A stretch of 64,000 bases of DNA from Actinomadura rupiterrae. Lineage in GTDB: Bacteria; Actinomycetota; Actinomycetes; Streptosporangiales; Streptosporangiaceae. The stretch covers positions 682,001 through 746,000 of the forward strand of contig NZ_JAMZEA010000005.1 in the NCBI RefSeq assembly GCF_024172125.1. Direction: 5' to 3'. A model generated the notes under the pieces. It made no database searches. It worked only from the letters and a program-made list of their open reading frames with translations, and was not told the origin of the DNA. Below are positions 28,571 through 31,986 of the stretch, one piece after another; position 1 is the stretch's first letter; every line of letters begins with the position of its first letter. The translations under genes were made by a program, and so were the position numbers.

Positions 28571-30619
28571 CTATCCAAGCCCGCGCTCCCGCAACACCCG
28601 TCTCTGCTGCTCAAGCGCGACAAGATCACCGAAGAGCCGATGGTATTCCTCGGCCTGCTCGGCCGGATTCAGCCGTCCGAGTTTAGATTTGACGTCCGCG
28701 ATCTGCCGGGTGAGCAGGCGTTCCTGGATTCGGGCCAGCAGTGCGGCGGCATAACGGTCATCCGATTCGGACGCGGACTGTGTCGGCTCGACTCCGAGCA
28801 TGGTGATCAGGTCTCTGACCTGCGTGTTCGCCGCCTGCTCCAGCAGCCGGGAGATCCACTCGGCCGGATCCGCCGCCGACGCGACCCCGCCGACCGCCCC
28901 CACGACACCCCGGACCGTCGCGAACTGGGGCACCAGAAACGCCTCGCCCGGAACCACGTCGAACCCCGGCCCGACCACCGCCGGACGCTGCACTACCAGC
29001 TTCAACAGCTCCCGCTCCAGCAGGACGCCGGGGTCGTGCGGGTCGTAGGTCGGCATTTCGGACCGGCCCGAATCCGCGCCCGCCTCGTCCTGCCCCTGGC
29101 CCTGCCCGGACGTCCCGTAACCGCCGGACGACCCGGCCGACGCGCCGCCTCCGTTGAAGCCCTGACCGCCGCCGTAACCGCCGCCGTTCCGGCCGCCCGC
29201 GCCGTTCCCGTTGCCGTTCGCGCCGCCGCGCTGGCCGTTGCCGCCGCCCTGCCCCGGACGGCCCTGGCCGTTGCGGCGGGCCTGCTCGCGCTGGGACAGG
29301 TCGCGGACGCGCTGGAGCACGAAACGCTCGTCCATGATGCCGAGCCACCGGTCGAGGCTGACCGCGTACATCTGCCGGAGCGCCCGGTCCTTGATGCGCG
29401 CGACGACCGGCGCGGCCGCGTCGAGCGCGGCGAGCCGCCCCTCGGCCGTGTTCAGGTTGTGCTCGCCGATCCGCGACCGCACGACGAACTCGAACAGCGG
29501 CGTGCGCGAGGCCACCAGGTCGCGCACGGCCGCCTCGCCATGGCGGACGCGCAGGTCGCAGGGGTCCAGGCCGTCCGGCTGGACGGCCACGAAGGTCTGC
29601 GTGACGAACTTCTGCTCGCCCTCGAACGCGCGCAGCGCGGCCTTCTGCCCGGCCGCGTCGCCGTCGAAGGTGAAGATCACCTCGCCGCGGAACTCGTCCT
29701 GGTCCATCAGCAGCCGGCGGAGGATCTTGATGTGCTCGTCCCCGAAGGACGTCCCGCAGGTCGCGACGGCCGTGGGCACGCCGGACAGGTGGCAGGCCAT
29801 CACGTCGGTGTAGCCCTCGACGACGACCGCCTGCCGGGACCGCGCGATCTCCTTCTTCGCCAGGTCGGCCCCGTACAGGACGTTCGACTTGTGGAAGATC
29901 GGCGTCTCGGGGGTGTTCAGGTACTTCGGGCCGTCGTCGTCCTCGTAGAGCTTGCGCGCGCCGAACCCGACGACATCGCCCGACAGGTCGCGGATCGGCC
30001 ACATCAGGCGGCCGCGGAACCGGTCCATCGGGCCGCGGCGGCCCTCCTTGGCCAGCCCGCCGGCGATCAGCTCGGCATCGGCGAACCCGCGTCCCCGCAG
30101 GTGGCGGACGAGGCCCTCCCACTCGCGCGGCGCGAACCCGACCCCGAACCGCTCGGCGTCGGCCGCCTCGAAGCCGCGCCCGGACAGGAACTGCCGCCCG
30201 ATCATGCCCTCGGGCGCGCGCAGGTTCTCGGCGAAGAACTCGGCCGCCGCCCTGTGCGCCTCGACCAGCCGCGCGCGCTGCCCCTGGTCGCGGCGGGGCT
30301 CGAACGCGCCGCCCTCCTCGTACCGGAGCTGGATGCCCGCCTTGGCGGCCAGCCGCTCGACGGCCTCGGTGAAGCCGAGGTGGTCCATCTCCTGGACGAA
30401 CTTGATGACGTCCCCGCCGGCCCCGCAGCCGAAGCAATACCAGAGGCCACGAGCCGGGGTGACGTTGAACGAGGGCGACTTCTCATCGTGGAACGGGCAA
30501 AGGCCCTTGAGGTTGCCCCCGCCCGCGCTCCGCAGCTGGAGGTACTCGCCGATCACGGCGTCGATCGACGATCGCTCCCGTACGAGCGCTATGTCCTCAT
30601 TGCGAATCCGGCCTGCCAC
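28571..30619 (-). CDS. dnaG: DNA primase
   Basis: 682 residues from the GTG at 30619 (V-A-G-R-I-R-N-E-D-I, the usual actinobacterial start). The zinc finger has Cys41, His44, Cys62 and Cys65. The catalytic core carries KSNVLYG and the TOPRIM motif VVVEGYTDVMA near 265, with the second acidic cluster FDGDAAGQKAA. The C-terminal DnaB-binding region follows a striking Gly/Asn/Gln-rich linker of about 80 residues (NGQGRPGQGGGNGQRGG-like). It makes RNA primers on the lagging strand. The sigma gene follows 65 bp later; dgt, its common neighbour, is 16.7 kb upstream here. Confidence 0.95.
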   Translation of the reverse strand: MAGRIRNEDIALVRERSSIDAVIGEYLQLRSAGGGNLKGLCPFHDEKSPSFNVTPARGLWYCFGCGAGGDVIKFVQEMDHLGFTEAVERLAAKAGIQLRYEEGGAFEPRRDQGQRARLVEAHRAAAEFFAENLRAPEGMIGRQFLSGRGFEAADAERFGVGFAPREWEGLVRHLRGRGFADAELIAGGLAKEGRRGPMDRFRGRLMWPIRDLSGDVVGFGARKLYEDDDGPKYLNTPETPIFHKSNVLYGADLAKKEIARSRQAVVVEGYTDVMACHLSGVPTAVATCGTSFGDEHIKILRRLLMDQDEFRGEVIFTFDGDAAGQKAALRAFEGEQKFVTQTFVAVQPDGLDPCDLRVRHGEAAVRDLVASRTPLFEFVVRSRIGEHNLNTAEGRLAALDAAAPVVARIKDRALRQMYAVSLDRWLGIMDERFVLQRVRDLSQREQARRNGQGRPGQGGGNGQRGGANGNGNGAGGRNGGGYGGGQGFNGGGASAGSSGGYGTSGQGQGQDEAGADSGRSEMPTYDPHDPGVLLERELLKLVVQRPAVVGPGFDVVPGEAFLVPQFATVRGVVGAVGGVASAADPAEWISRLLEQAANTQVRDLITMLGVEPTQSASESDDRYAAALLARIQERLLTRQIADVKSKLGRLNPAEQAEEYHRLFGDLVALEQQRRVLRERGLG

Positions 30620-30833
30620 AGCGAACGAGTCTAGGCGCGCGCCCGGACATTCCGCGCCGCTTGCCCGACCTCGCCCACCCCTGGCCGCCCCCGCCATGGA
30701 GCAGCCGCCCACAAGGCAGGAGCCTCAGAGCCTGCGCCCAGCTGCCCGCTGCCACCCGACCAGCAGCCGAAACTCCTGTCGAACACCTCGCTCCCTCGGA
30801 GGGGGAACGCCTAGCAACGCATGGCCGATCTTG

Positions 30834-31892
30834 TCACTTCGGTAGACGGGCAACGAGGATGTTGTCTTCCAGAGCCCATTCGCCATGTCCCTCGGGGCTG
30901 ATACTGAAGAGGTCCTTGCGACCATCGACGGGCCCACGGACATCTCGGACGACCCAGCCCTTACGGCTGAACGCCTTGCTGGACACCTCGAATCGCCGGC
31001 GGTGCTCCTCAAGCAGGAAGAACGCTGGGGAAAGATCTTCCGTGACGAAGTGGACCCTGAAGATCGAGCTCGGTAGGCGGCCAGGGAAGCCTTCCCGCAC
31101 CTGCTCGGTGATCCCATAGGTCCCGATGCCGAGCCGCGTGCTGACCGTCCTGACGTACTCCAGGATCTCCCGCTTGGCGCAGTTGAGCATCACCGTCCCG
31201 TCCTTCGCCACATGACCGTCCGCCGCGAGGTATCCGGCCAACCACCCGTACAGATAGGGGACGGACTCCTGCATGGGCGGGAGCGATTTGAAGAACCGTG
31301 GCAGGTGGTGCACCAGCAGCTGATGCGGAGCCCTGGTCTCGGTCACGACGCTGTTCGAGAACCACTTGAGCAGAGGCCGGTCTTTCGCCGGGTCCAGCTG
31401 CGCCATGCTTCCGGTGCCGTTGAGCGTGCCGTCACCGAACGTGATGCCGTGGGCGATCCCGAAAGGTGAAGGAGTCGTCTGCCGGACACCGTTGCGGGGG
31501 AAGACGACCGCGAGCCTGTCCCCCTCTTTCAGGTGACCGGTCGGGACCAGGGCCCTTTGCTTGCGCGACGGGCCCGTTCTCAGGAGCCATGACTGCCCGG
31601 GAGCAGCCTGCAAGATCTTGGTCTGCCGATTTCGCCCGACGACCACGCTGAGAACCGGCCCGGCTCCGCAAGGCGCGAAGGTCACATCGTGCCAGCAGGC
31701 GTCCCGGCCCAGTACCTGGTGCTGCTTCCCGTCGCACAGCTCGCGAATAGCCCGGCATCCCGCTTTCGTAAGGATCTTGGTGGCTCCTGCCCAGCCGCCG
31801 GTCAGGAGTTCCTCGGAGGAACCTGGCCAGGAGCGGCGAGAGGAGGTCGCTTCCGAATACATGTCTGTGACGCTACGACTACCCTCTGACAT
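30834..31892 (-). CDS. Free-standing LAGLIDADG homing endonuclease with degenerate intein (Hint) domain
   Basis: 352 residues from the ATG at 31892 (AGGAGA just upstream). The layout is that of an intein: Hint-N (about 32-130: GATKILTKAGCRAIREL, LSVVVGRNRQTKIL, HLKEGDRLAVVF), two LAGLIDADG motifs (FGIAHGITFGDG at 144-155; YGWLAGYLAADGH at 215-227, both Asp kept) and Hint-C (GHGEWALEDNILV at 336-347). Splicing residues look lost: Trp34 where Cys1 is expected, the block-B T-x-x-H seems to read A-A-P-G-Q, and no His-Asn-Cys end; it stops in ARLPK. No host protein flanks it. Probably a nuclease gene derived from an intein, lying upstream of dnaG on the same strand. Confidence 0.85.
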   Translation of the reverse strand: MSEGSRSVTDMYSEATSSRRSWPGSSEELLTGGWAGATKILTKAGCRAIRELCDGKQHQVLGRDACWHDVTFAPCGAGPVLSVVVGRNRQTKILQAAPGQSWLLRTGPSRKQRALVPTGHLKEGDRLAVVFPRNGVRQTTPSPFGIAHGITFGDGTLNGTGSMAQLDPAKDRPLLKWFSNSVVTETRAPHQLLVHHLPRFFKSLPPMQESVPYLYGWLAGYLAADGHVAKDGTVMLNCAKREILEYVRTVSTRLGIGTYGITEQVREGFPGRLPSSIFRVHFVTEDLSPAFFLLEEHRRRFEVSSKAFSRKGWVVRDVRGPVDGRKDLFSISPEGHGEWALEDNILVARLPK

Positions 31893-31986
31893 TCTCCTCT
31901 CTCTGAGCAAGGGTTCGCATCCCGGAGAAGATCAGGACGAAGCCGAGGGCCTGGCGCCACCAGCGGATTTCATGTTTCTCCGTCAT
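31879..31986 (-). CDS. Possible 35-residue membrane peptide overlapping the endonuclease start
   Basis: A short frame begins with ATG at 31986 (M-T-E-K-H-E-I-R-W-W) and has one hydrophobic segment (WRQALGFVLIFSGM). It ends with a TAG 14 bases inside the endonuclease gene. This overlap would let ribosomes reinitiate at the endonuclease ATG, whose AGGAGA lies within this frame. No strong Shine-Dalgarno precedes it, so it may not be translated. Confidence 0.3.
   Translation of the reverse strand: MTEKHEIRWWRQALGFVLIFSGMRTLAQREENVRG

Follow-up and report, generated by a model that had tools for sequence, protein, structure and literature searches.

A stand-alone LAGLIDADG endonuclease gene of DnaG-intein descent beside an intein-free dnaG in Actinomadura rupiterrae

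The window analysed in this work, a stretch of 64,000 nucleotides from Actinomadura rupiterrae, carries on its minus strand an intact dnaG and, 214 bp upstream of it, a gene that has the makeup of an intein and stands by itself (Table 1). The gene opens with an ATG at 31892 and closes with a stop codon at 30834–30836, with no in-frame extein on either side. An earlier, sequence-only reading of this DNA had placed the gene at these coordinates and at this distance from dnaG on the same strand, and had noted its own start, its Shine-Dalgarno sequence and the missing host protein; all of this agrees with what we find. The product of dnaG is complete, with zinc ribbon, catalytic core, Toprim and DnaB-binding domains all present. 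The upstream neighbours in the window lie on the plus strand and include a histidine kinase (HisKA_3) and a second gene which we take to be a response regulator. Within the A. rupiterrae genome the endonuclease gene finds no match other than itself.

Table 1. Coordinates of the endonuclease gene, its parts and dnaG in the window
Feature	Position	Strand	Basis
Intein-derived free-standing LAGLIDADG endonuclease gene, 352 aa	30834–31892	minus	open reading frame, relatives, structure model
GAGGAG, Shine-Dalgarno-like	31894–31899	minus	sequence
Leader, residues 1–32, outside the intein homology	31797–31892	minus	alignment
Hint-N remnant, residues 33–138, with Gly33 for Cys1 and A97-P-G-Q100 for block B	31479–31796	minus	
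Double LAGLIDADG endonuclease domain, residues 139–308	30969–31478	minus	alignment, Pfam
Hint-C remnant, residues 309–349, with Arg349 for the terminal Asn	30846–30968	minus	
Residues 350–352 and stop codon, past the intein homology	30834–30845	minus	
dnaG, 682 aa, GTG start, intact, intein-free	28571–30619	minus	
TAGACT, probable dnaG -10 element	30628–30633	minus	by eye, 61 aligned upstream regions of carriers and non-carriers
Empty intein insertion site in dnaG, TAT/TGC, immediately 5′ of the codon for the first Cys in CFGC; presumed target of homing	30436–30437	minus	

The intergenic region offers a few further details. Judged from the aligned sequences, the TAGACT motif is probably the -10 element of dnaG, and a GGATGTC-like block, also seen by eye, lies 5′ of it in most members of the genus. 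A promoter and terminator scan, which covers actinomycete promoters poorly, gave no match. Seen by eye, the leader of the endonuclease gene faintly resembles the N-extein of DnaG, from which it could conceivably derive.

Homology of the protein to DnaG inteins runs from end to end across residues 33–349, and the order of Hint-N, two LAGLIDADG motifs and Hint-C that had been proposed from the sequence appears both in the alignment with these inteins and in an AlphaFold2 model (mean pLDDT 87.5; residues 1–25 mostly below 50). Structural comparison matches the model to PI-SceI and to PI-PfuI, the latter over 302 residues at Z 22.4 and an rmsd of 3.1, and the LAGLIDADG domains of WhiA are also among its structure matches. 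The alignment used for the structure work held 42 sequences, with L149, one of the 42 loci described below, left out. In the superpositions with 1dq3, 2cw7 and 1lwt, the first aligned pair joins model residue 33 to residue 1 of the intein, and residue 349 pairs with the last intein residue. The Cys1 position is therefore occupied by Gly33, one residue away from the Trp34 proposed earlier, and the sequence alignment gives the same assignment; all 47 intein rows of our tree have Cys there. The Thr and His of the block B motif T-x-x-H, present in 47/47 intein rows, are replaced as had been suspected. At the C-terminus, alignment and structure agree on Arg349 in place of the terminal Asn and on Leu350 at the +1 position. 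The loss of the C-terminal splicing residues was thus read correctly, while the expected ending was not, for related inteins terminate in Gly-Asn/Cys (Arg-Asn/Cys in one) and not in His-Asn-Cys. Splice residues in an intact state, with flanking extein, were not found for the window gene.

The nuclease part is in a different condition. Both LAGLIDADG Asp residues are retained as the earlier reading had it: Asp154 in FGDG (codon at 31431–31433, minus strand) and Asp225 in AADG (31218–31220, minus strand), at sites where Asp is found in 44/47 and 46/47 inteins, respectively. Pfam recognizes LAGLIDADG_3 alone (PF14528; 28.6 bits against a cut-off of 22.5), with no other domain up to E 1. There is no Pfam match to a C-terminal zinc finger, and the protein stops three residues past the intein end.

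Relatives of this protein are overwhelmingly in-frame inteins. An alignment-query scan of a collection of 84,980 species, which worked through two conserved peptides and is for that reason not exhaustive, returned 42 loci; 41 of them are DnaG inteins at one and the same place, the zinc site of the primase, in Actinomycetota and Alphaproteobacteria, and the 42nd is a stand-alone gene in Actinomadura barringtoniae. Matches to in-frame inteins reach E 2.9e-120 and up to 62% identity, and with the same arrangement present in a second species the finding is not a product of chance. Sampling by rank gives a similar picture. Matches occur in 25 of the 297 genomes of the order sample, the window's own included, and the flanks of the other 24 identify 20 DnaG inteins, three inteins of a sister type, L018 among them, and one fragment. 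Within the family, 35 of 341 genomes have a match: two stand-alone genes, 23 DnaG inteins, four RtcB-type inteins, the intein L054 described below, one fragment and four weak same-genus matches near E 3e-4, which we treated as chance. The class sample of 394 genomes yielded nine matches, again with the window's own among them, and no further stand-alone copy. The stand-alone gene is present in 2 of the 65 genomes of the genus.

The DnaG inteins start with Cys after the primase sequence ...GL[WY][HYF] or its equivalent and end in ...LTGN/CFGC, so that the insertion point precedes the leading Cys of the second zinc-binding pair. DnaG as such is tabulated as a known intein host in the accessible part of PMC5874633. 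Several of these inteins (L015, L016, L017, L020, L021, L023 and L024) have decayed in the opposite direction, with the endonuclease eroded or deleted and the splice junctions kept; they can be as short as 154 aa. A sister type of intein sits in the RNA ligase RtcB, as Pfam identifies for L018 (PF01139) and as the flanks suggest for L019, L022 (on the N side), L053 and L164, the frame of the last appearing split in two. The 36% relative L054 is an in-frame intein within another enzyme gene. On the Skermanella rosea plasmid NZ_CP086115.1, the coordinates of a 39% relative (L166, 3001–3912) place it within a MobF relaxase gene and in its frame, and this intein type therefore also occurs in a conjugation protein.

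Other searches returned little. A close-protein scan of viral contigs found no relative; neither did a single-protein scan of the genome contigs in which the alignment query found the 42 loci. Phage records contained 13 weak matches at 22.7–28.8% identity, several of them in annotated ribonucleotide reductase genes. NCBIfam and PHROGs yielded no family for the window protein. A PDB sequence search with the single protein gave no match, and a PDB profile search gave two weak ones, PI-PfuI (0.0038) and 2gj2 (0.065). No stand-alone relative lacking intein ancestry was found, the only other copy, that of A. barringtoniae, being of intein ancestry too. The check proposed in the earlier reading, to look among relatives for the protein as an in-frame intein, gave such inteins at 41 of 42 loci, and the idea of an escape from a nearby replication gene not only fits but can be made sharper: it is from the intein family of dnaG, the very gene next door, that the stand-alone gene stems.

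In A. barringtoniae (genome G297, locus L121) the stand-alone copy lies 39 bp upstream of a dnaG that is likewise intein-free. It has Gly, Ala, Gln and Ala at Cys1, at the Thr and His of block B and at the terminal Asn, so that the first three replacements are the same in both copies, and it keeps both catalytic Asp residues. The assembly is rated 7% contaminated, though the contig that carries the gene is 700 kb long and has dnaG and sigA next to it. In several non-carriers, the sequence upstream of dnaG aligns into the last 45 nt or less of the A. barringtoniae gene, so that the end of this gene, stop codon included, seems to consist of the original upstream sequence of dnaG. Together with two other genes, the endonuclease gene separates dnaG from what is its direct neighbour in 14 of 59 non-carriers. 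These two genes (L028, 6426–7822), one of them presumably GrpB-like, are flanked by the endonuclease gene on one side and, on the other, by the divergent gene that usually neighbours dnaG. The genes on the far, upstream side are unlike in the two carriers, so the far-side homology that a clean co-conversion would require is not evident. In the dnaG of A. barringtoniae (L028, 3443–5305), 22 of the first 133 codons have A or T as third base, the maximum among 61 genomes (median 6), and the rate for the gene as a whole is 0.171, compared with 0.078 for dnaG of the window. Judged by 396 nt of dnaG, the carriers are not close to each other: the window is nearest to L073 and L072 and A. barringtoniae to L077, all three without the stand-alone gene.

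The two halves of the gene differ in conservation. Identity between the copies is 43% in the splicing part and 75% in the endonuclease part. Against 21 DnaG inteins, the endonuclease half of the copies has 50–79% identity and the Hint segments 30–54%, which makes the identity of Hint minus that of endonuclease -34 and -28 points on average for the two copies; the same difference among 210 pairs of inteins has a mean of +1.0 (sd 7.4, range -13.3 to 22.2). By simple counting, and with dS near saturation, dN/dS between the copies is 0.14 for the endonuclease half, where four intein pairs give 0.12–0.14, and 0.47 for Hint, where the intein pairs give 0.11–0.20. Of the 143 base differences between the endonuclease halves, 82 are at third positions. 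The Hint comparison of the A. barringtoniae copy with L002 shows the opposite trend, with a dN/dS of 0.11, at a saturated dS of 3.62. We read the eroded Hint part next to a constrained endonuclease as the release of splicing, and not of the nuclease, from selection. The view that this is an intein which lost splicing and kept its endonuclease and a start of its own, first put forward from the sequence, is in this way supported by alignment, trees, identity gap, dN/dS and leader. As to age, the carriers differ at a dS of 1.27 in the endonuclease gene, compared with 0.68 in dnaG and 0.50 in sigA; a recent horizontal transfer between the two species, which was also considered, is not supported, the gene's dS exceeding the other two. 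Presence in 2 of 65 genomes at such an age implies many losses, or reacquisition from unseen lineages.

Whether the two copies go back to one escape or to two was approached from several sides. Over the first 33 nt of the window copy's leader, 25 are identical to the leader of the other copy, a likeness that begins exactly at the ATG; the best match to the leader in the upstream regions of 59 non-carriers is 20 of 33. Eight Hint residues are common to both copies and occur in none of the 47 intein rows, among them the Gly, Ala and Gln at Cys1 and block B, and seven other compared pairs have no such exclusive residues (0 each). The full-length tree was built from 49 rows, without the short inteins L020, L021 and L024 and without those missed by the pattern, among them L004, L023, L151, L053 and L054. 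In it the copies group together (100/99) within the DnaG inteins of Actinomycetota, beside the intein of Actinoallomurus spadix (join with L002, 94/77). This pairing could come in part from an attraction of fast-evolving Hint domains. With the endonuclease only, both copies fall inside the Actinomycetota DnaG-intein group (groups of 23 and 27 rows at 92/90 and 87/92) and are not paired: that of A. barringtoniae goes with L003 (83/91), while the position of the window copy is not settled by the tree. The A. barringtoniae copy has two exclusive endonuclease residues in common with L003 and one with L120, and the two copies have none with each other. Two separate escapes, each of a DnaG intein and each ending at this position next to dnaG, would agree with this endonuclease-only grouping, with the two residues in common with L003 and with the different upstream genes of the carriers. 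Such a double event is, however, quite improbable in our estimate, given a common leader from the same ATG that is absent upstream of dnaG in the 59 non-carriers, eight exclusive Hint residues that include the Cys1 and block B changes, and a monophyly of the copies that the endonuclease half does not reject (p-AU 0.245). A single escape for both copies is favoured.

The insertion site in dnaG is empty in all 61 genus genomes from which the start of dnaG and its upstream region were extracted, carriers included; the four others of the 65 (G303, G151, G278 and G301), in which dnaG lies at or across a contig end, were omitted, and they have no match to the stand-alone gene. From the empty site to the 3′ end of the endonuclease gene the distance is 397 bp in the window and 222 bp in A. 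barringtoniae. Each carrier has a silent base at the site that occurs in 1 of 61 genomes, namely TAT at -1 in the window and TTT at +6 in A. barringtoniae. Third bases are richer in A/T in the carriers, and these bases do not exceed what the carriers' own third-base A/T rate would give (P 0.49 and 0.38); an A/T-ending codon is also found there in 2 of the 59 non-carriers; the silent-base excess is kept as a lead only, because its significance disappeared under this A/T control. A duplicated fragment of dnaG on the far side of the gene was not found by blastn of dnaG against 9.2 kb and 6.7 kb. The best matches, barring an overlapping promoter stretch in G297, had E 3.9e-4 over 44 nt and 2.6e-4 over 34 nt, on the opposite strand; tblastn of dnaG on the far sides gave nothing below 0.04 among the matches listed.

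Descent of the gene from the DnaG intein family is strongly supported. We further think it likely that it is an escaped DnaG intein that now acts as a stand-alone homing endonuclease beside dnaG, its ancestral target gene. The ancestor would have carried the widespread intein in its DNA primase, just ahead of the leading Cys of the CFGC zinc motif, and a copy of the whole intein would have landed just upstream of the dnaG promoter. The relocated copy would then have gained a start codon and leader and lost its splicing residues, dnaG now being free of the intein, and the gene would now make a stand-alone LAGLIDADG endonuclease. This enzyme is envisaged to cut the empty intein site in the dnaG alleles of cells that lack the gene. 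Repair from carrier DNA would copy the adjoining endonuclease gene along, as the site is only 397 or 222 bp from the 3′ end of the gene, and splicing would not be needed. Carriers would escape their own cut, perhaps through silent changes of the site. Nuclease activity, dnaG as the target, homing and self-protection are the parts of this account that we infer.

The same origin could also have ended in domestication, with homing ceased and the protein now serving the dnaG locus as a host nuclease or as a regulator that binds DNA, like HO or like WhiA, a regulator derived from a LAGLIDADG protein. Both species have retained the adjacency to dnaG with copies of considerable age (dS 1.27) and no sign of recent transfer, which speaks for this, as do the WhiA domains among the structure matches and a leftover Hint domain that is still somewhat constrained at a dN/dS of 0.47. 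It is nevertheless an unlikely outcome: a gene found in 2 of 65 genomes is not distributed like one with a host function, the catalytic Asp pair is kept with the endonuclease constrained as in inteins, and WhiA, as far as the accessible part of PMC7282813 goes, is reported to have lost cleavage. A decaying relic, that is, a dead endonuclease pseudogene on its way to being lost, would suit the patchy distribution (2/65) and the heavily eroded Hint half. We regard a relic as very improbable in view of the full-length open frames of both copies after a dS of about 1.3, the endonuclease dN/dS of 0.14 with 82 of 143 differences at third positions, the Asp pair and the confidently modelled intein part. 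Hardly credible at all is a still-splicing intein with exteins that escaped notice, or else an intein-bearing dnaG disrupted by an error of assembly or of frame. The intein fold with both Hint halves speaks for it, but an unbroken, full dnaG follows 214 bp downstream, both copies have other residues at Cys1, at the Thr and His of block B and at the terminal Asn, and an independent assembly shows the same arrangement. The escaped homing endonuclease remains our preferred reading.

Several known systems resemble this gene in part. With DnaG inteins it shares the LAGLIDADG domain, and it differs from them by its place outside dnaG, its own start and the loss of splicing residues. WhiA (DUF199) has the LAGLIDADG fold in common with the window protein and is a protein to which a DNA-binding domain has been added. 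It is described as a regulator without cleavage in the accessible part of PMC7282813, whereas the window protein keeps the Asp pair and the Hint halves. The yeast WHO elements, according to the same part of that source (PMC7282813), adjoin FBA1 and home without splicing, and resistance to them stems from allele differences of the host gene. The likeness to WHO and HO as described there consists of a stand-alone, intein-related endonuclease without exteins and with motif G lost; WHO genes also adjoin their host gene, as both stand-alone copies adjoin dnaG here. Unlike WHO in that account, the present gene has no zinc finger and no duplicated host fragment, and it is a single copy and not a cluster. 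Its source intein is the neighbouring gene's own, while VDE and WHO have different host genes (PMC7282813, accessible part), and cleavage by the window protein is a prediction from its sequence, unlike that by yeast WHO and HO. The gene could be a bacterial counterpart of WHO, arisen independently of yeast, which abandoned splicing and spreads by cutting the dnaG site and co-conversion with silent-site self-protection; we put this forward tentatively, as a possibility a little short of probable. Such an element might also mobilise, in trans, the endonuclease-less DnaG mini-inteins at the same site.

For co-conversion without splicing, the homing of the T4 seg genes is the nearer parallel and the yeast WHO elements the more distant one. 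The free-standing endonucleases of T4 (SegF, SegG) carry out intronless homing from cut sites hundreds or thousands of bp from the gene, as covered in the accessible part of PMC2988022, and they are likewise encoded by intergenic genes near the gene that is cut, which here would be dnaG. According to that part of the source, the T4 enzymes are of the GIY-YIG or HNH kind, of phage and non-intein origin, and their homing has been shown; homing in the present case is what the arrangement suggests. A stand-alone prokaryotic LAGLIDADG gene is also known from the Haloferax glycosylation islands (PMC5867893); it belongs to LAGLIDADG family 2 (pfam03161), and the accessible part of that source claims no intein ancestry for it. 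A search of the largely open-access literature on stand-alone intein-derived nucleases, WHO elements and DnaG inteins found no bacterial precedent, and the accessible parts of PMC3229294, PMC2988022, PMC5867893, PMC8966425, PMC8987985 and PMC7282813 contain no bacterial case like this one. DnaG inteins are already known, and it is their stand-alone bacterial descendant that is apparently without precedent in the literature searched.

How homing endonucleases move between a splicing host and an independent existence has yet to be settled. For the step inwards, in which a free nuclease joins an intron, there are phage models; the exit of an intein to a free nuclease is, to our knowledge, known mainly from yeast HO and WHO. 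In these related actinomycetes, intact inteins, a free nuclease and nuclease-less inteins are all found at one gene. With both states of one intein, and decay in opposite directions, at the same gene, the exit step becomes directly testable: the same presumed target is served by two architectures.
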